Below are positions 7,613 to 17,575 of a stretch of DNA of 33,348 bases, one piece after another. The DNA is from Gammaproteobacteria bacterium (GTDB taxonomy: Bacteria > Pseudomonadota > Gammaproteobacteria > Xanthomonadales > Wenzhouxiangellaceae). A program made the position numbers and the translations under genes. The DNA lies in assembly GCA_021772955.1 (NCBI GenBank), contig JAJFKZ010000028.1, positions 1-33,348 on the forward strand. Reading direction: 5' to 3'. Numbering within the stretch: the first letter of the stretch is position 1; each line of letters starts with the position of its first letter. The notes beneath the pieces were generated by a model. It saw only the letters and a list, made by a program, of their open reading frames with translations, searched no databases and was not told the DNA's origin.

Positions 7613-8581
7613 ATGAAAATCGTCTACGCAGGCACACCTGAATTCGCTGTACCTGCGCTCAAAGCGTTGTGCCAACGCGATGCACTCAGACCGCTACTGG
7701 TGTTGACTCAACCGGATCGACCAGCCGGTCGCGGTCGTCATCTGCAATGCAGTCCAGTGAAATTGTATGCCCAGAACGAACAGCTGCCGGTGGCGCAACC
7801 ACAAAGCCTGGCCGAGGCGCCGATTCAAGCGCAGCTGCAAGCGCTGGCCCCGGATCTGATCATTGTCGCAGCCTACGGCCTGCTGTTGCCGAAAGCGATT
7901 TTGCAGTTGCCGCAGCATGGTTGCTGGAACATTCATGCTTCACTGCTACCGCGCTGGCGCGGTGCGGCCCCGATTCAGTATGCGCTTGCCAGCGGTGACC
8001 GCCACACCGGCATCAGCATCATGCGCATGGAAGCCGGCCTGGATACCGGGCCAGTGTATCTGCAACGACGCATCGCCATCAGCGCGTCCGATACCAGTGC
8101 CAGTCTGCACGACAGGCTGGCAGAACTTGGCGCAGATTGTCTGCTGCAGTGCATCGATGCGCTGTTGCAGGACAAACTGGGCGTGCCCACACCGCAGCAC
8201 CAGGATCAGGCCAGCCACGCGCCCAGACTGACAAAAAGTGCCGCGCAGATTGACTGGCAGGAATCTGCTGAGACCATAGCGCGTAAAATCAGAGCCTACA
8301 ATCCCTGGCCGGCCGCGTGGACGCAACTGTTGGGCAAACGCACCGTGATCTGGGCCGCCACAGCTGTCACCGACAGTTTCGGCGTGCCAGGCAGCGAGCA
8401 TGGCAGCGAGCATGGCAGCGGGCCTGGCAGCATTCTTGAAGCGCACCATGATCGTCTGCTGATTGCTTGTGGTAGCGGCGCGCTGGCAGTAAGGCTGCTG
8501 CAACCGGCAGGCAGCCGCGTCATGCCCGTATCCGACTGGCTGAACGCCTATGGCCGTCACCTCGCAATCCCAGTCAATTAA
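7613..8581 (+). CDS. fmt: Methionyl-tRNA formyltransferase
   Basis: A 322-residue enzyme that formylates initiator Met-tRNA using 10-formyltetrahydrofolate. The catalytic domain has YAGTPEFAVPAL at the N terminus, the Asn106/His108 pair in WNIHASLLPRWRGAAP, and Asp145 in MEAGLDTGPVY. The C-terminal OB-like domain includes IRAYNPWPAAW. An unusual feature is a short Gly/Ser/Glu/His repeat in the C-terminal domain, encoded by a 12-base tandem repeat at 8390-8431. It sits between def and rsmB on the same strand. Confidence 0.97.
   Translation: MKIVYAGTPEFAVPALKALCQRDALRPLLVLTQPDRPAGRGRHLQCSPVKLYAQNEQLPVAQPQSLAEAPIQAQLQALAPDLIIVAAYGLLLPKAILQLPQHGCWNIHASLLPRWRGAAPIQYALASGDRHTGISIMRMEAGLDTGPVYLQRRIAISASDTSASLHDRLAELGADCLLQCIDALLQDKLGVPTPQHQDQASHAPRLTKSAAQIDWQESAETIARKIRAYNPWPAAWTQLLGKRTVIWAATAVTDSFGVPGSEHGSEHGSGPGSILEAHHDRLLIACGSGALAVRLLQPAGSRVMPVSDWLNAYGRHLAIPVN
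8390..8431 (+). repeat. 12-bp tandem repeat inside fmt
   Basis: The unit GGCAGCGAGCAT occurs exactly at 8390-8401 and 8402-8413. A third copy with three changes is at 8414-8425 and a half copy at 8426-8431. It encodes GSEH-GSEH-GSGP-GS in frame, so changes in copy number would alter Fmt by four residues without a frameshift. Confidence 0.85.
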
Positions 8582-8600
8582 CCGAGGAGCCGCATCCAGC

Positions 8601-10175
8601 ATGTCTCAGTCCGACAACAAACCGCCAGCAGCCCAGCCGGATGCCAAACCGACCACCGCCGTCACGGCCAAGACCGCTGCTGCAAAACCTGCGGGCGCAG
8701 CCAGCAAACCTGCTCAGTTCAAAGGCCGCAAGCCATTGCGAAAAAAACCCACTGGGCCGGCCAAACCGGGGGCCAAAAGAGCACGTTCTGAAGCATCAGC
8801 ACATAGCAATCCCACTCAAAAAACCGCCCGCAAGACACGCGCACGCCAACGTGGGGCCAACAACATCCGCCCCACGGCCCGCTGCCTGGCGGTGATCACG
8901 CTGAAAGACATTCTCGGCAACGATTTGACCCTGGATCACGCCATCGACAAACACCTGCAAGAACTGGATGCCCGTGATCGAGCATTTGCCCAGCATCTGG
9001 TCTACGCCACGCTGCGCCGACTGAACTCACTGCAGGCCATAGCAGCGCTGTTGCTGGATAAACCTTTGCCGCGCAAATATTTCGATGTCGAATTACTGCT
9101 GCTGCTCGGCCTGCTGCAGTTGTGGGACAGCCATGTCGCCGATCACGCTGCCGTCAGTGCCACCGTCAATGTCTGCAACGAACTAGGCAAAAACTGGGCC
9201 CGCAATCTGATCAATGCCGCCTTGCGGCGCTTCCAGCGTGACCAGGCGCAACTGTTAGCACAATCGCAGCAAGCCGATCATCTGCGTTACAGCACACCAC
9301 AATGGCTGTTAGCAGCGCTGCAACAGGACTGGCCTCAGCGCTGGTTGAGTATCGTGCAACAGGGCTTGCGACCAGCACCGATGTGGCTGCGTGTGAACCT
9401 GGCCAAAATCAGCCGGGATGATTATCTGCGCCAGTTGTCGGAACAGCACATCGCCGCTGCTGCTGGCAACTCCCGCGCTGATGTCCTGCTGCGCCAGCCA
9501 CTGGCGGTCGAGCAATTGCCAGGTTTTGCACAGGGACTGGTTTCAGTGCAAGACAGCGCGGCGCAATGGGCGGCCACGATTCTGGCGCCGGCAGCCGGTC
9601 ATAAAGTGCTGGATCTGTGCGCCGCACCGGGCGGCAAGAGCTGTCAGCTGCTGGAACAATACCCGGGTATTCAACTGACCAGTGTGGACCTGCATGCACA
9701 ACGGTTGCAGCGGCTGCAAGACAATTACCAGCGCCTCGGCGTACACGGCGAAATCATTTGCGCAGATGCTCTCGCCGCAACCGGCAGTGATGGCTGGTGG
9801 GATCAGCAGACCTTTGACCGCATTCTGCTGGATGCCCCTTGCTCTGCGACCGGGGTGATCAGACGCCATCCGGACATCAAGTGGCGCTTGCAGACCCAGA
9901 AGCTGGACAACATTCTGCAGCTGCAACAGCAGTTGTTGCAATCTGCCTGGCGCATGCTCAAACCCGGCGGTCACTTGCTGTATTCGACCTGCTCTGTATT
10001 GAAGTCCGAAAACGATGCGCAGATCCAGCGCTTCATGCAAACCACGCCAGATGCACAAGCGCAAACGCTGGCTCTGGAGGTGGGACAGGCTACCGATTTC
10101 GGCTGGCAATGCCTGAGTGGTGACGGCGGCGGTGACGGCATGTATTTTGGCCTGCTGAAAAAACCTTTGCCATGA
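8601..10175 (+). CDS. rsmB: 16S rRNA (cytosine(967)-C(5))-methyltransferase RsmB
   Basis: A 524-residue enzyme that methylates C967 of 16S rRNA. After an 87-residue Ala/Lys/Pro-rich extension there is a NusB-like RNA-binding domain (about 90-220). The SAM-dependent methyltransferase domain follows, with VLDLCAAPGGKS (336-347), ILLDAPCSATG (408-418, Cys414) and YSTCSV (461-466, nucleophile Cys464). Family members usually begin close to the NusB-like domain, so the basic extension is unusual. The ATG at 8601 is preceded by GAGGAG at about 12 bp; an upstream in-frame start at 8550 would overlap fmt and is less likely. Confidence 0.95.
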   Translation: MSQSDNKPPAAQPDAKPTTAVTAKTAAAKPAGAASKPAQFKGRKPLRKKPTGPAKPGAKRARSEASAHSNPTQKTARKTRARQRGANNIRPTARCLAVITLKDILGNDLTLDHAIDKHLQELDARDRAFAQHLVYATLRRLNSLQAIAALLLDKPLPRKYFDVELLLLLGLLQLWDSHVADHAAVSATVNVCNELGKNWARNLINAALRRFQRDQAQLLAQSQQADHLRYSTPQWLLAALQQDWPQRWLSIVQQGLRPAPMWLRVNLAKISRDDYLRQLSEQHIAAAAGNSRADVLLRQPLAVEQLPGFAQGLVSVQDSAAQWAATILAPAAGHKVLDLCAAPGGKSCQLLEQYPGIQLTSVDLHAQRLQRLQDNYQRLGVHGEIICADALAATGSDGWWDQQTFDRILLDAPCSATGVIRRHPDIKWRLQTQKLDNILQLQQQLLQSAWRMLKPGGHLLYSTCSVLKSENDAQIQRFMQTTPDAQAQTLALEVGQATDFGWQCLSGDGGGDGMYFGLLKKPLP

Positions 10176-10936
10176 GGCCGCAGCGCCGGCTTATGTTCTT
10201 GCACCAGACATGGCGCCTGCGCCCAGATCAACTTCATCCCGGAGCCACGTTGAGCGCCGCCCGCCCTAGCCGCCGCGCCATGTCGATACTGGTTCCAGGC
10301 TTGCTGGCCTTGGCATTGCTCAGTTGCGATAGGCCGTCGGCCAACAGCGGCAATGACAGCACTTCCGGCATCAATCTGCGCGAACTTGCTATCGAGCAAG
10401 CTGCAACTGTGCAAATGCGCGCTGCCATCGACCTGCGCCTTGGCAGTGGAGTTACCGAAGCGCTGCGCAGTGGTATCCCGATCACCATCACGGTGGATCT
10501 GCGCCTGGGCCTGCGTTATCGTTATTTCGCCCGGGAAATCAACACGCACAGCTTTCACTGGGAGTTGAGCTATCTGCCCCTCAGCGAACGCTACACCCTG
10601 AAACATGCACTCAGCGGAGACATCAGCAGCTTCCCGCGCCTGAACATGTTGCTGGACAGTCTGCGCGAGCCGGTCGCCTATCCCTGGCAAGGCGCCCCTG
10701 ACGGACTCAACGACGGCCAGCATCAGCTGCAGATTCGAGCACGTCTGAATCGCCTGCGCTTGCCAGCACCACTGCGACTGCCGGCCATGCTATCCCGGCA
10801 GTGGCGCTTGCAGGATGGCTGGCGTACCTTGCTGATACCGGCTGACGATGTTGCCAACGCTACTGCCAAGCTACAGCCTGCGCTGCTGGCAAATGCGTTA
10901 TCTGCAGCACCGGCACCCGAGCACAATGAAATCTGA
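10172..10936 (+). CDS. DUF4390 domain protein, possible lipoprotein
   Basis: A hypothetical protein of up to 254 residues, of the DUF4390 type commonly found between rsmB and an ntrY-like kinase gene. The first ATG overlaps the rsmB stop (ATGA). An internal Met37 at 10280 starts MSILVPGLLALALLSC, which looks like a lipoprotein signal with Cys52 as possible lipidation site, so the true start may be 10280. The body is beta-rich with alternating hydrophobic residues (ITITVDLRLGLRYRYF). It overlaps the next gene by 11 bp. Function is unknown; the conserved location suggests a link to the sensor kinase. Confidence 0.8.
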   Translation: MRPQRRLMFLHQTWRLRPDQLHPGATLSAARPSRRAMSILVPGLLALALLSCDRPSANSGNDSTSGINLRELAIEQAATVQMRAAIDLRLGSGVTEALRSGIPITITVDLRLGLRYRYFAREINTHSFHWELSYLPLSERYTLKHALSGDISSFPRLNMLLDSLREPVAYPWQGAPDGLNDGQHQLQIRARLNRLRLPAPLRLPAMLSRQWRLQDGWRTLLIPADDVANATAKLQPALLANALSAAPAPEHNEI

Positions 10937-13175
10937 ATCCTGGCTGTACGGCAGGAGCCTGCCACTACTGGCGCTGCTCAGCATGCTGCTGGCAGCAGCT
11001 TTGCTGGTGGTCGATATTGAATCGGGCGACAACCGCATGCCGACGATGAACCTGTGGATTCTGGGGCTGGGACTGCTGGCATTGTTATTGTTGCTGGCCG
11101 CCATCCTGGGGCGCTTTGTACGCTTGGCCAGCCAGTTGCGCCGCCAGGAACCTGGCGCGCGTCTGACGCGCAGATTGACCATCATTTTCCTGGCGCTGAC
11201 CGTACCGCCGGCATTGATCGTGTACTTGTTCTCGATGGAGTTTCTCAACGAAACCATTGATGATTGGCTGAATGTCGGTCAGGAGCAGGCCCTCGCCGAC
11301 GCCATTGAGCTGGCGCGGGTGGTGTTGGATGCGCGCACGCTGGAAAGTCAGCGCCAGGTACGCCAACTGACGATCGAGTTACAAGATGAAATCAATCGTC
11401 GCGACGCCAGTGACTGGTTTCCGTTGCTGATCGACAAGGTCAGCAGCAGCGGACCGATGGAGCTGTCTATACTGGACGAGCGCGGCGCAGTACTGGCATC
11501 GGCCAACATCGATGGCGCGGTGATGAGCGCAGATCGACCGCGCGATTTCACGCTGCTGCAGATTCTGGACAATCGCATCTATGCTGAAGCGGAGCCGCTC
11601 ACCCGCAGCAACAATAGCGCCGCTAACGACACCACCCAGGCGCTGTCCCGGGAACTCAAGATTCGTGCCGCCATGGTCATCCCCGAATCCGGACCTGGGC
11701 AACCCCGACGCATTTTACAGGGCATCTATTATCTGCCCGGGCAATTCAATGATCTGGCCGGCAGCATCGAGGCGGCCTATTACGATAACCAGCGCGTGAT
11801 TGTGTTACGTGATGCCCTGAAACTCAGCTTTGTCATTATCCTCACCCTGGTGCTGGCACTGAGCATCCTGTTGGGCATACTTGCCGCCTTGAGCGTAGCC
11901 CAGCGACTGGTACAGCCGCTGACGCGATTGGCCCACGCCACCGGTCAGGTCGCAGTGGGCGAATACCACCAGGAGGTGACCTTGCAAAGCAGTGATGAAC
12001 TGGGCTTTCTGGTGCGCTCATTCAATCAGATGAGCATCGAGCTCGAGCGCAGTCGCGTCCATCTGGAAGATCAGCGCCAATACCTGGAAACGGTGCTCAA
12101 CCGCTTGTCTGCCGGAGTCATGTCGTTCGACAGCAGCAATCATCTGGTGACCAGCAATTCCAGTGCTGCAAACATCCTGAACATCGATCTGAAGGCCTGC
12201 AGCGGACAAAGCCTGGACAGCCTCGCCGATCGTTACAGCAACCTGGCTGGATTGTTCCAGCGCATACGCGAACGTAGCCAGCAGGCGCTGGAATGGCGCG
12301 AGGAAATCAATCTGCAGCAAGATCGGCAAGCCTTGGTGCTGGTCGTTCGCGGTACTCGCCTGGCGGGACAAAGCGCTGGTCAGGTGGTGGTCTTCGACGA
12401 TGTCACGGTGCTTACCGAAGCACAGCGCCAGGCAGCCTGGTCCGAAGTTGCCCGACGCCTGGCACATGAAGTTAAAAATCCACTGACCCCGATTCGACTG
12501 GCCGCAGAGCGCATGGGGCGAAAATTGCTGCCACAACTGGATGCACAACACCAGACGATCCTGGCCAAGGCCACTTCCACCATCGTCAATCAGGTCGAAG
12601 CATTGCAGGCACTGGTCAACGCCTTCGCCGATTACGCCCAGGACAATCGTGCTGAATTGCAGTCCCTGGATCTGCATCAGTTGCTGGATGAAATCATCAG
12701 TCTCTATCAGACCGCCAGCGACAGCATCCACTTCAGCAGTGACTTGCAGGCCCAGTCGGCCATGATCATCGCCAATGCCGGGCGCCTGCGTCAGGTACTG
12801 CACAATCTGATTCGAAACGCCCAGGAGGCACATACTGCAGCAGCCATCAGTGCAACCCTGCTCATCGGTCTGCACACCCGCAATGAAGCCCGCAATGGCG
12901 TCGATGGTGTGTTGCTCGTGCTCAGCGACAATGGCCCGGGCATCGACGAAGTGCTACTGGAAAACGTTTTCCAGCCCTACGTCAGCAACAAATTGCGCAG
13001 CACCGACGGTAGCGAACTTTCTGACCGCTCATCCGGCCTTGGATTGGCCATTGTGCGCAAAATCATTGACGAGAGTGGTGGCAGCATCATGCTGGCAAAC
13101 CACAACAACGGTGGCGCTGTGGCCAGCATCTGGCTGCCGATGGCCGCGCGAGTTGATCATGCCGCATCCCCATGA
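10926..13175 (+). CDS. ntrY: NtrY-type membrane sensor histidine kinase
   Basis: A 749-residue kinase with the NtrY layout. Transmembrane segments lie at about 12-30, 43-62 and 84-103, then a long extracytoplasmic region, then another membrane segment at about 300-323. A HAMP domain (about 326-378), a PAS domain (about 380-490), HisKA with the phospho-acceptor His514 in RLAHEVKNPLTPIRLA, and an ATPase domain with HNLIRNAQEAH, LSDNGPGID and GLGLAIVRKI follow. It should phosphorylate the NtrX-like regulator downstream in response to an unidentified envelope or redox/nitrogen signal. The ATG at 10926 overlaps the DUF4390 gene by 11 bp and fits the first membrane segment better than the upstream Met at 10848. 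Confidence 0.92.
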   Translation: MKSESWLYGRSLPLLALLSMLLAAALLVVDIESGDNRMPTMNLWILGLGLLALLLLLAAILGRFVRLASQLRRQEPGARLTRRLTIIFLALTVPPALIVYLFSMEFLNETIDDWLNVGQEQALADAIELARVVLDARTLESQRQVRQLTIELQDEINRRDASDWFPLLIDKVSSSGPMELSILDERGAVLASANIDGAVMSADRPRDFTLLQILDNRIYAEAEPLTRSNNSAANDTTQALSRELKIRAAMVIPESGPGQPRRILQGIYYLPGQFNDLAGSIEAAYYDNQRVIVLRDALKLSFVIILTLVLALSILLGILAALSVAQRLVQPLTRLAHATGQVAVGEYHQEVTLQSSDELGFLVRSFNQMSIELERSRVHLEDQRQYLETVLNRLSAGVMSFDSSNHLVTSNSSAANILNIDLKACSGQSLDSLADRYSNLAGLFQRIRERSQQALEWREEINLQQDRQALVLVVRGTRLAGQSAGQVVVFDDVTVLTEAQRQAAWSEVARRLAHEVKNPLTPIRLAAERMGRKLLPQLDAQHQTILAKATSTIVNQVEALQALVNAFADYAQDNRAELQSLDLHQLLDEIISLYQTASDSIHFSSDLQAQSAMIIANAGRLRQVLHNLIRNAQEAHTAAAISATLLIGLHTRNEARNGVDGVLLVLSDNGPGIDEVLLENVFQPYVSNKLRSTDGSELSDRSSGLGLAIVRKIIDESGGSIMLANHNNGGAVASIWLPMAARVDHAASP

Positions 13176-13235
13176 GCTGCATCAGCGGCGTATAATCACA
13201 GGCCTGTACGCATACAGTCCTGCCGGTCGCAGGCC
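13176..13235 (+). other. Short spacer after ntrY with a TATAAT box
   Basis: This 60-bp spacer holds a TATAAT at about 13190-13195 on the plus strand and a small CCTGC/GCAGG inverted repeat just before the element at 13236. The TATAAT could be a -10 for a separate ntrX promoter, but I see no matching -35. Confidence 0.3.
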
Positions 13236-13402
13236 CTAGGGGGCGTTATTAATTAGCACAGGTTGTGCTGTTAAGCCTGAAAATGCGCCAGACAAGGCGT
13301 GAGGAGAGAGGTTTGGTTACTCCAAATGAACGACGAACAACGCAGTATGGCGTTTTTTCAGGCTCAACCCGTCGGGCCGGGCCAATTGAGAATGCCCACT
13401 AG
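13236..13402. mobile_element. Family-2 MITE-like palindromic element before ntrX
   Basis: A 167-bp non-coding element bounded by CTAG at both ends. The left end CTAGGGGGCGTTATTAATT and the reverse complement of the right end CTAGTGGGCATTCTCAATT are imperfect inverted repeats. An inner pair, AGCCTGAAAATGCGCCA and its counterpart AGCCTGAAAAAACGCCA in reverse, makes a second stem. The terminal CTAGTGGGC is shared with the element at 19468-19737. It lies between ntrY and ntrX and ends 9 bp before the ntrX ATG. Insertion into CTAG with a TA duplication is the known preference of IS630-type transposases; that link is an inference here. Confidence 0.7.
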
Positions 13403-13411
13403 CACAGCATC

Positions 13412-14722
13412 ATGCCAGAACCGTTGATTCTCATTGTTGATGACGAAGCCGATATCCGCGAGCTGATCTCAGATATTCTTGCTGATGAAGGCTATCGGGT
13501 GCAGACGGCTGCCAACGCCAGCGAGGCAGATGCAGCCTACCGTGATTTGCAGCCGGATCTGGTGCTGCTGGATATCTGGATGCCCGACAGCGATGGCATC
13601 ACGCTGCTGGAACAATGGCAAAAACAATCACCCTTGTGCTGTCCGGTGGTGATGATGTCCGGCCACGGCAATGTCGAAACGGCAGTCCAGGCCACGCGCC
13701 TGGGGGCACTGGATTTCATCGAAAAACCCGTTGCGCTGAACAAGCTGCTGGCGATGACCGAACGCGCACTGGCGCACGATCAACCCAGCAGCAAGGTCAT
13801 GCTGGTCGAACAATCGTTGCCGTATGCGCTGCCTTCCGGCAACTCCGACTACCGCCAGGCACTACGCCAGCAACTGCAAAGCCTGGCTGGTCATCTGCAC
13901 CATTACGCATTGGCTGGAGAGCCCGGCACCTGCGCCAGAGATCTGGTGCATTGGGTACATGAAAACAGCCCGTTGGCGAACCTGCCATTGCTGTTTGATC
14001 AACGTGCCCTGCAAGCACTGGCTGCCGATGAGGTTGCTAGCGGCAGTATCTGCATCAGTGCCGTCTCATTACTCAAGCATGAACAGCAGCAATTGCTGCA
14101 TGACTGGGCCAGTGCTGCGCAACCGGACCAGCCCCGGCGGCTGGTGCTGTGCAGTTCCGGCGAAGTTGACGACCTGAATTTGCAAAGCACTCTGACCGCG
14201 TCATTGTATGAATTGCTGGACGGCACCGTGGTGGTATTGCAGCCCTTGCGCCACCACTTGATTGATGTTCCGGTGCTGCTGCGGCAATATTCGGAAATGC
14301 TGTCAGATCGGGATAACCTGCCGTATCGATCGTTTTCTCTGGCGGCTCAAAATCAGTTACGACAGTTCGCATGGCCCGGCAACGAATGCCAGCTGCGGCG
14401 GTTTGTCCGGCAGCTCCTGCTGCTTGGCGGCAAGCAGGAGATCAGCACCGCTGAAGTGCAACAGCAGTTGCAGCTGTTGCAGCAGCAACCGGCTGTCGCC
14501 GGCATGGACAATGATATTTTCAATCTGCCTCTGCGCCAGGCGCGTGAGGCGTTCGAACGCCATTATTTGACCCACCATCTACAGCAAACCGACGGCAACG
14601 TCGGCGCACTGGCCGACAAAGTCGGCATGGAGCGCACGCATCTGTATCGTAAACTTCGCGGCCTGGGTTTGGACCCTCGCCAAATCAGCAAGCCAGCAGA
14701 GTCATTGATCAACACGGACTGA
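13412..14722 (+). CDS. ntrX: NtrX-type response regulator with degenerate AAA+ core
   Basis: A 436-residue regulator. The receiver domain (1-120) is intact: Asp10/Asp11, phospho-acceptor Asp54 in VLLDIWMPDSDG, Ser83 and Lys105 (EKPV). The middle region keeps the outline of a sigma-54 AAA+ domain, such as PLRHHLIDVPVLL at 278-290 and FAWPGNECQLRRF at 319-331. The Walker A motif reads GEPGTCARD (169-177) without its lysine, no Walker B DE is visible, and the GAFTGA loop is missing. A Fis-type helix-turn-helix ends the protein (about 375-420, GNVGALADKVGMERTHLYRKLRGLGL). It should bind DNA but not drive sigma-54 melting. No Shine-Dalgarno is seen; a MITE-like element ends 9 bp upstream. trkA starts 2 bp after the stop. 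Confidence 0.85.
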   Translation: MPEPLILIVDDEADIRELISDILADEGYRVQTAANASEADAAYRDLQPDLVLLDIWMPDSDGITLLEQWQKQSPLCCPVVMMSGHGNVETAVQATRLGALDFIEKPVALNKLLAMTERALAHDQPSSKVMLVEQSLPYALPSGNSDYRQALRQQLQSLAGHLHHYALAGEPGTCARDLVHWVHENSPLANLPLLFDQRALQALAADEVASGSICISAVSLLKHEQQQLLHDWASAAQPDQPRRLVLCSSGEVDDLNLQSTLTASLYELLDGTVVVLQPLRHHLIDVPVLLRQYSEMLSDRDNLPYRSFSLAAQNQLRQFAWPGNECQLRRFVRQLLLLGGKQEISTAEVQQQLQLLQQQPAVAGMDNDIFNLPLRQAREAFERHYLTHHLQQTDGNVGALADKVGMERTHLYRKLRGLGLDPRQISKPAESLINTD

Positions 14723-14724
14723 TT

Positions 14725-16101
14725 ATGAAAATTATCATTCTTGGCGCCGGTCAGGTTGGCGCCGGACTGGCCTTCAGCCTGTCACATGAACACAATGACA
14801 TCACCGTCGTCGATACCGATCAACAGCGTTTGCGTGAGCTGCAGGATCGACTGGATATCCGCGGTGTGGCCGGCTATGGCTCACATCCGCAGGTGCTGAT
14901 CAGGGCCGGCATTGAAGACGCCGACATGCTGGTGGCGGTGACCAACAGCGATGAAGTCAACATGATCGCCTGCCAGGTTGCCTACACCTTGTTCAAGACG
15001 CCCACTCGCATCGCCCGCGTGCGCGAAAGTGAGTATCTGAGCCATCCGGAATTGTTTGAAACGCAGCATATTCCCATTGATCTGCTGATCAGCCCGGAAC
15101 AGGAAGTGTGCAAATACATCCGCCGCCTGATCGAATACCCCGGCGCCTTGCAGGTGCTGGATTTTGCCAACGGCAAAGCGCAGGTAGTGGCCGTGCGGGC
15201 GCGCTCGGACGGACCTTTGGTGGGTCAGCAGTTGAGCACTTTGCGCGAGCACATTCCCGGTGATGTGGATGCGCGTGTGGTCGCCATTTTTCGTGATGAC
15301 AAGGCCATTAAATTTGAAGGCAGTACCGTCATTCACCGTGATGATCTGATGTTTTTCCTGGCCGCGAACCAGGACATTCGGGTGATCATGAACGAATTGC
15401 GCCAGCAGGAACAACCGATCAAGCGCATCATGCTGGCCGGTGGTGGCAACATTGGCAGCACGCTGGCGAAAAGCCTGGAATTTGATTACCACGTCAAGCT
15501 GATCGAACGCAGTCCCCAGCGCGCGCGCGAGATTACCGAAGACCTGGAGCGGGCCATCATTCTGGTTGGTGACTGCGCCGACGTGGAATTACTCAAGGAG
15601 GAGAGCATCGACCGCGTCGATGTGTTCTGCGCTTTGACCAATGATGACGAGGCCAATATCCTGTCATCCATGCTGGCCAAAAAGCTTGGTGCTGGCAAGG
15701 TGCTGACGCTGATCAACCGCCCGGCCTATGCCGATCTGGTGGAAATCGAATTGATCGACGTTGCTGTCTCACCGCGACAAATCACCATCGGTGCGCTGCT
15801 CACGCGCATTCGCCGCGGCAACATCGAGCGCGTGCATTCGTTGCGTAGCGGTGCCGCCGAAGCCATTGAAGCAGTGGCCAAGGGCAATGCCTCGACCTCG
15901 AACGTGGTCGGCCAGCGCATCGGTGAACTTGATCTACCGCCCAGCGCGGCGATCGGCGGTATCGTGCGCGGTGACAAGGTGATCATAGCCCACGACGACA
16001 TCAAGATAGAGAGCGATGATCATGTCATCCTGCTGGTCACTGACAAACACCATATCCAGGCCATTGAGGAGTTGTTTGAAGTCAGAGACAATGTGGTCTG
16101 A
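14725..16101 (+). CDS. trkA: Trk potassium uptake system, NAD-binding regulatory subunit TrkA
   Basis: A 458-residue cytoplasmic protein that gates the TrkH potassium channel. It has the tandem layout of TrkA: an RCK N domain starting MKIIILGAGQVGAGLA with the dinucleotide loop, a TrkA-C domain, then a second N domain starting IMLAGGGNIGSTLA (about 234) and a second C domain at the end. Length equals the E. coli protein (458). It follows the ntrX stop by 2 bp and precedes trkH by 19 bp, so it is very probably in one transcript with both. Confidence 0.97.
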   Translation: MKIIILGAGQVGAGLAFSLSHEHNDITVVDTDQQRLRELQDRLDIRGVAGYGSHPQVLIRAGIEDADMLVAVTNSDEVNMIACQVAYTLFKTPTRIARVRESEYLSHPELFETQHIPIDLLISPEQEVCKYIRRLIEYPGALQVLDFANGKAQVVAVRARSDGPLVGQQLSTLREHIPGDVDARVVAIFRDDKAIKFEGSTVIHRDDLMFFLAANQDIRVIMNELRQQEQPIKRIMLAGGGNIGSTLAKSLEFDYHVKLIERSPQRAREITEDLERAIILVGDCADVELLKEESIDRVDVFCALTNDDEANILSSMLAKKLGAGKVLTLINRPAYADLVEIELIDVAVSPRQITIGALLTRIRRGNIERVHSLRSGAAEAIEAVAKGNASTSNVVGQRIGELDLPPSAAIGGIVRGDKVIIAHDDIKIESDDHVILLVTDKHHIQAIEELFEVRDNVV

Positions 16102-16120: not shown

Positions 16121-17575
16121 ATGAACCTCATTACCCTGCGACGTCTGGTTGGAGCGATGCTGATGCTGTCGGGGTTGTGGCTGCTGCCACCCACCGTGGT
16201 GGCGCTCATCTACGACGAAATCTACGAAGCGCACCCGTTCGCCATTGCCGCGCTCATCGAGCTGTTGCTGGGCCTGGCGCTGTTCTGGCCACTGCGCAAA
16301 CACAAAACCGATTTGCGTGTACGCGACGGTTTTCTGATTGTGGTGATGACCTGGCTGGTGTTTGCCATCAGCGGAACCTTGCCATTGTGGATGATCAAGG
16401 TACCGCACATCAGTTTTGCCGATGGCCTGTTTGAGTCCATGTCGGGACTGACCACCACCGGTGCAACGATACTGACTGGCCTGGATGATATGCCGCGCGG
16501 TCTGCTGTATCTGCGTTCGCAAATGCAATGGCTCGGTGGCATGGGCATTATCGTGCTGGCGGTGGCGATTTTGCCAATGTTGCGGATCGGTGGCATGCAG
16601 CTGTTTCGGGCCGAGACCCCGGGACCGATGAAAGACTCCAAACTGACGCCGCGCATCACCGAAACCGCCAAGGCATTGTGGCTGATCTATGTGGTTGCCA
16701 CCATCGCCTGTGCCGGTGCCTACTGGCTGGCAGGTATGTCATTGTTTGATGCCATCAATCATGCTTTTACCACCTTGCCAATCGGTGGCTTCAGCACCCA
16801 CGATGCCAGCATTGCTTATTTTCAGAGTCCGTTGATCGAATTCATTGCCATGCTGTTCATGGTCATCGCCGGGGTCAATTTCACACTGCACTTTATCTCC
16901 TGGCGTGATGCCTCGGTCAATGTCTACTTTCAGGACTCAGAGTTACGCATGTACCTGCTCTTGCTGGCGGTCTTCGTTGCCATCATTACCATCAACATCC
17001 TCTATCAGGGCATTGCCACCGATTTCTTCACGGCGTTGCGCCTGGGCGCATTCCAGGCCATCAGCGCCATGACCACGACCGGCTATACCACGGCCAGTTT
17101 TTATGCCTGGCCCGGTGTTGTGCCGATCATGCTGGTGGTCATCAGCATCATCGGCGGCTGTGCCAGCTCCACCGCCGGTGGCATGAAGGTAGTGCGCGTC
17201 ATGTTGCTATCAAAACAGATGCTCCGGGAGATTCGCCATCTGATTCATCCCAATGCAGTGCTGGCCATCAAGTTCAGTAACCGGGTCATTAACGATCAGG
17301 TCATCGGCGCGGTGTGGGCCTTTTTCTTTCTGTATGTCGCCACCATCGTTTGTTGCGGCATGCTGCTGCACGCCATTGGGCTGGATCTGGTCACCGCCTT
17401 TTCCGCTACCATTGCCTGTCTCACCAATCTGGGGCCGGCCATTGGTGCGGCCGGACCAAACTATGCGTCGCTGCCGGACACTGCCAAGTTGATCCTCAGT
17501 GCCATCATGTTACTTGGGCGTCTGGAAATTTTCACCCTGCTGGTGCTGTTCATGCCCTCATACTGGAGGGATTGA
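16121..17575 (+). CDS. trkH: Trk potassium uptake system membrane protein TrkH
   Basis: A 484-residue integral membrane potassium transporter. It contains the repeated pore-loop motifs of the family: GLTTTGATIL, LPIGGFSTHD, AMTTTGYTTASF and LTNLGPAIGAAGP, each between hydrophobic helices, plus GGCASSTAGGMKV. The C terminus LGRLEIFTLLVLFMPSYWRD is typical. It works with TrkA encoded just upstream. Its stop codon shares bases with the start of the following small gene (TGATG). Confidence 0.97.
   Translation: MNLITLRRLVGAMLMLSGLWLLPPTVVALIYDEIYEAHPFAIAALIELLLGLALFWPLRKHKTDLRVRDGFLIVVMTWLVFAISGTLPLWMIKVPHISFADGLFESMSGLTTTGATILTGLDDMPRGLLYLRSQMQWLGGMGIIVLAVAILPMLRIGGMQLFRAETPGPMKDSKLTPRITETAKALWLIYVVATIACAGAYWLAGMSLFDAINHAFTTLPIGGFSTHDASIAYFQSPLIEFIAMLFMVIAGVNFTLHFISWRDASVNVYFQDSELRMYLLLLAVFVAIITINILYQGIATDFFTALRLGAFQAISAMTTTGYTTASFYAWPGVVPIMLVVISIIGGCASSTAGGMKVVRVMLLSKQMLREIRHLIHPNAVLAIKFSNRVINDQVIGAVWAFFFLYVATIVCCGMLLHAIGLDLVTAFSATIACLTNLGPAIGAAGPNYASLPDTAKLILSAIMLLGRLEIFTLLVLFMPSYWRD

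Follow-up and report, generated by a model that had tools for sequence, protein, structure and literature searches.

An NtrX/PlrR-type response regulator with an eroded AAA+ core in a gammaproteobacterium of the family Wenzhouxiangellaceae

The window (the whole stretch of 33,348 nucleotides that was analysed, from a gammaproteobacterium of the family Wenzhouxiangellaceae) contains the gene series def, fmt, rsmB, DUF4390, ntrY, ntrX, trkA, trkH; all genes given here with coordinates are on the forward strand. The rsmB gene (8550..10175, identified by annotation and synteny), a conserved upstream neighbour, is followed by a gene for a DUF4390 protein (10172..10936; PF14334, 1e-24) and by the sensor kinase gene ntrY (10926..13175), whose product contains HAMP, PAS, HisKA and HATPase domains (Pfam) and, by residue inspection, H514 within the motif HEVKN. 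The DUF4390 protein is a homolog of PlrP, the third component of the Bordetella PlrSR system (PMC13001219), and the presence of rsmB and the DUF4390 gene directly upstream of ntrYX is the arrangement of PlrPSR-type loci. Inspection by eye shows an internal methionine in the DUF4390 protein followed by a lipobox-like LALALLSC, and the protein may be a lipoprotein. Downstream, 2 bp separate the ntrX stop codon from trkA (14725..16101; ORF list, NCBIfam), and trkA precedes trkH, which encodes a potassium transporter subunit (16121..17575; NCBIfam). The order from def to ntrX is retained in most of the relatives examined; trkA and trkH follow ntrX in many of them but not in all (e.g., they are absent at this position in Methylomonas loci). 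In another genome of the same genus, G001, ntrX and trkA appear to overlap by 4 bp (GTGA). The trkAH genes are probably co-transcribed with ntrX; direct control of trkAH by NtrX is a conjecture.

The ntrX gene (13412..14722; ORF list, Pfam, NCBIfam and alignment) encodes a 436-aa response regulator with an eroded AAA+ core. The receiver (REC) domain (residues 1-121, 13412..13774; Pfam Response_reg, 2e-29) has D54, the phospho-acceptor (13571-13573), S83 and K105 (13724-13726) all in place, and D54 and K105 are invariant in a 49-member alignment of NtrX proteins (A1). The AAA+ lid domain (residues 279-358, 14246..14485; Pfam AAA_lid_14, 6e-9) retains the WPGN motif at residues 321-324, and the C-terminal Fis-type helix-turn-helix (HTH; residues 374-420, 14531..14671; Pfam HTH_8, 7e-9) contains the conserved sequence GMERTHLYRKL. 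The top NCBIfam match of the protein is NtrX (2e-73), with a score of 247.8 bits, far below the equivalog cut-off of 600. The protein combines a receiver with the Asp and Lys residues, a C-terminal Fis-type HTH, NtrX as the best family model and an adjacent ntrY gene, and is a true NtrX by orthology.

The central domain (residues 139-278, 13826..14245; delineated by a Sigma54_activ_2 match, the AlphaFold model and a motif table) matches only Sigma54_activ_2, the Pfam model of the degenerate type, from end to end (positions 2-138 of 138) with 24.9 bits against a cut-off of 25 bits; Sigma54_activat (PF00158) is not among the Pfam matches at E-values up to 1. The Walker A remnant, GEPGTCAR (residues 169-176, 13916..13939), keeps the first glycines and has A175 in place of the lysine, and the Walker B remnant, SGSICISAV (residues 210-218, 14039..14065), contains no acidic residue, with S216 and A217 at the D/E positions. 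The loop 1 that bears the GAFTGA motif is deleted upstream of the Walker B remnant. The alignment with 114 homologs further shows that the arginine-finger residue is replaced by T262 and the sensor II arginine, in the lid, by C326. The span between Walker A and Walker B is 49 residues long compared to 63-68 in most lysine-retaining relatives, and Brucella NtrX (PDB 5m7n) has about 29 extra residues between the two aligned blocks. The first-pass annotation of this DNA had described an intact receiver and HTH, a preserved WPGN landmark and missing Walker A lysine, Walker B acids and GAFTGA loop, all of which is borne out here. Judging by the residues that are kept, the core is unable to function as a sigma-54 activator, and the protein is no longer a bacterial enhancer-binding protein (bEBP), the predicted AAA+ fold notwithstanding.

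An AlphaFold2 model built with a 49-row alignment has a mean pLDDT of 89.7, with values mostly between 91 and 97 in the core and the lid, and a pTM of 0.60, so that the arrangement of the domains in the model is unsure. A Foldseek search started with this model identifies the Brucella NtrX structures as the best matches (E 3e-29), followed by NtrC1 (E 1e-22) and NtrC4, VpsR and FleQ. VIA-align ranks NtrC1 and Brucella NtrX at Z-scores of 24-25, with a large rmsd because the domains move. As modelled, the central domain still resembles AAA+, without the nucleotide site.

The region between ntrY and ntrX contains a candidate promoter and an insertion. A TATAAT hexamer (13191..13196, forward strand), a candidate sigma-70 -10 element of an ntrX-trkAH promoter, is located just past the ntrY stop codon within the sequence AGCGGCGTATAATC, which is identical in G001. 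By analogy, this region is a candidate equivalent of the promoter at the 3' end of Bordetella plrS that drives plrR-trkAH (PMC13001219). Part of the family has a conserved promoter-like element, TGCGSTATNCT, upstream of ntrX; this element has no match in the window or in G001, where TATAAT occupies the corresponding position. Between ntrY and ntrX there is also a MITE-like insertion (13236..13402, no strand assigned) with imperfect inverted ends, CTAGGGGGCGTT and AATGCCCACTAG. The insertion is absent from G001, which has CTAG at the matching place; further copies are present in the window genome, G000 (on contig C114, 80% identity over 147 bp, and as a fragment on C127), with relatives at 78% in G008. 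The alphaproteobacterial pattern CAAN2-5TTG, which S. meliloti NtrX binds depending on phosphorylation of D53 (PMC9223101), occurs twice, as a raw count, within 480 bp upstream of ntrX. In the sister genus g4, a perfect 18-bp palindrome, TGTGGTAAATTTACCACA, is found just upstream of ntrX, once per genome (L148 in G004 and L149 in G008), and may act as an operator of the ntrX promoter in that genus. The palindrome is found nowhere in G000, G001 and G003 with up to 2 mismatches allowed, and the idea of a common NtrX operator was dropped given its absence from G000 and G001.

The window genome (an assembly 88% complete) encodes a divergent sigma-54 factor, RpoN (L127, G000:C36:23048-24115), that keeps the ARRTVAKYR box. 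Two further proteins of this genome match sigma-54 activators with high scores; one carries GAFTDA, and the other is PspF-like and carries GSFTGA. Other regulators therefore probably continue to use sigma-54. The GAFTDA protein gene (L142, G000:C106) is adjacent to a second NtrY-like kinase gene. Divergent rpoN genes are present also in G001, G004, G008, G019, G030 and G035, which encode few other sigma-54 activators; this divergence would fit a sigma-54 regulon that has shrunk and is under relaxed or shifted constraint. In G044 (99% complete), ntrX and trkA are present and neither of two Pfam models detects rpoN; hence, a genome can carry such an NtrX while lacking sigma-54, and the family does not require this factor. 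A simple link between NtrX erosion and the loss of the sigma-54 system is ruled out: rpoN is divergent in G000, G001, G004 and G008, but its scores are normal in other lysine-less lineages (G005, G009, G011, G013 and, among betaproteobacteria, G065). In the 2-contig genome G054, several genes for sigma-54 activators, as well as rpoN and ntrX, seem to be broken into pieces (G054:C1:951956-953047 and 1600000-1605000), which reflects either frameshift errors or real pseudogenes.

The distribution of the motif losses was examined in NtrX relatives from 60 related genomes and GTDB species genomes, with 115 rows compared; because the window protein served as the query, this set is a sample of beta- and gammaproteobacterial NtrX rather than full coverage. 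A GAFTGA-like motif is found in none of the 115 proteins, including those with intact Walker motifs. Thus, the ability to contact sigma-54 was lost in an ancestor and not specifically in the ntrX of the window. The earlier proposal that this protein acts independently of sigma-54 is borne out. The Walker A lysine is kept in 75 of the 115 proteins. On a tree built only from the REC and C-terminal columns, with the core left out, the presence or absence of the lysine requires 4 changes, 3 of which are forced by well-supported branches; the losses map to Betaproteobacteria, a Lysobacteraceae-like clade (where Lys is replaced by Arg), 4 genomes of the genus g5 and the genus of the window. In the sister genus g4 (G004 and G008) the lysine is kept and loop 1 and the sensor II arginine are already gone, so that its NtrX is an intermediate state. 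Across the 115 rows, loss of the sensor II arginine, a shorter Walker A-Walker B span and loss of the lysine tend to co-occur. As read from these sequences, loss of the nucleotide site is what the genus of the window adds, a convergent change given about four losses of the Walker A lysine, and the NtrX of the window represents the extreme of a loss that proceeded gradually and repeatedly across the family. The description of this protein in the first-pass annotation as the decay of a true enhancer-binding protein is therefore only partly apt: it is an NtrX ortholog that lost its motifs, but the absence of GAFTGA is an old family trait, and "decay" is too strong a word for a core with a predicted AAA+ fold and evidence of purifying constraint.

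We consider it likely that this protein is a regulator of the PlrR/NtrX type that is switched by NtrY phosphorylation and acts at sigma-70 promoters without ATP. Under this scheme, NtrY would phosphorylate D54, probably with the help of the periplasmic DUF4390 protein. The phosphorylation would alter the receiver-mediated dimer contacts; the paired Fis-type HTHs would then occupy palindromic sites, with either activation or repression of sigma-70 promoters as the outcome. We infer that the former AAA+ core would neither bind nor hydrolyze ATP, nor touch sigma-54, and would persist as a folded linker or dimerization module.

An alternative is that the core is a decaying remnant that only spaces the REC and HTH domains and is headed for deletion. 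The comparison of G000 with G001, whose NtrX is 72% identical and lacks the same motifs (GEPGTCLH and RGCIAISAG at the Walker positions), bears on this directly. Identity between the two is 86% in the REC domain, 61% in the core, 76% in the lid and 90% in the HTH; dN is higher in the core than in any other domain, at 3.4 times that of REC (0.31 vs 0.09), compared to 0.8 times in a lysine-keeping Methylomonas/Methylobacter pair (0.12 vs 0.15), which also fits ongoing neutral decay, and loop 1 is already deleted, with the betaproteobacterial forms shorter still (about 420 aa). However, the 140 core codons contain no indel, and dN is far below dS (2.1, saturated), which indicates a constrained core with no frameshift; the full AAA+ fold is confidently predicted, and in all 30 sampled rows of the betaproteobacterial clade the lysine is gone but the domain is retained. 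The core thus appears to evolve fast and yet under purifying constraint, weaker than that on the rest of the protein, and the remnant hypothesis seems unlikely. It is conceivable, but quite unlikely in our estimate, that these proteins make up a class of NtrC-family pseudo-ATPases that arose repeatedly: after the sigma-54 contact was lost, the core would have been converted in parallel (in Betaproteobacteria, the Lysobacteraceae-like clade and, within the family of the window, two lineages) to a module that works without a nucleotide and has taken on a new role in allostery or ligand sensing. The related hypothesis that the core of the window protein itself became a sensor of another nucleotide, a second messenger or a partner protein, similar to VpsR or FleQ, appears improbable: the fold is kept with all ATPase residues lost, and the structural matches include FleQ and the c-di-GMP-binding relative VpsR, but these matches stem from shared AAA+ ancestry and no conserved new pocket is apparent. 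Finally, although the window assembly is fragmented (176 contigs), the chance that the motifs are concealed by a sequencing or assembly error, the outcome that would have undone the first-pass annotation, is negligible: the independent genome G001 has the same losses, and the frame is open throughout the gene, which rules out a frameshift, pseudogene or artefact.

The NtrX family offers a graded natural series, from proteins with all Walker residues and no GAFTGA through partial losses to the NtrX of the window with none, which lets one ask what a AAA+ domain does, and why it is kept, once the sigma-54 contact is lost. In practical terms, beta- and gammaproteobacterial NtrX should not be annotated as sigma-54-dependent.

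Among the known systems, betaproteobacterial NtrX (PlrR of Bordetella, NtrX of Neisseriaceae) is orthologous to the protein of the window and shares the order rsmB-DUF4390-ntrY-ntrX(-trkAH), represented in Bordetella by rsmB-plrP-plrS-plrR-trkA-trkH (PMC13001219). In Bordetella, there is evidence that phosphorylation of PlrR is required, genetic evidence, specific to this genus, that the DUF4390 protein restrains the phosphatase activity of NtrY, and deletion of trkAH produces none of the phenotype seen with the loss of plrS (PMC13001219). The sampled betaproteobacterial proteins, like that of the window, have lost loop 1, the Walker A lysine and the sensor II arginine; in the window, however, the lysine was lost independently, neither Walker B position is acidic, and gammaproteobacterial relatives mostly keep the lysine. 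A passage of PMC13001219 that cites Bonato 2016 states that betaproteobacterial NtrX lacks a AAA+ domain. No bEBP with a degenerate Walker motif turned up in a search of the literature; the degenerate core of betaproteobacterial NtrX was already known, and the convergent gammaproteobacterial example is new. Brucella NtrX (PDB 5m7n, 5m7o and 5m7p), the best solved match, and other alphaproteobacterial NtrX share the REC-AAA+-Fis architecture, but the Brucella protein was crystallized with ATP and ADP, for which the NtrX of the window has no residues; Caulobacter NtrX has been reported to lack GAFTGA. NtrC of Rhodobacter capsulatus and Caulobacter and VspR of Vibrio cholerae act at sigma-70 promoters and regulate independently of sigma-54 (PMC10274813), a property shared by the NtrX of the window. 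The GAFTGA-less NtrC of R. capsulatus needs ATP binding and that of Caulobacter needs binding and probably hydrolysis (PMC10274813), whereas the nucleotide site of the NtrX of the window is gone; given these NtrC-type relatives, this NtrX may retain a nucleotide role by another mode. The GAFTGA-less VspR works without ATP (PMC10274813) and is the nearest mechanistic parallel.
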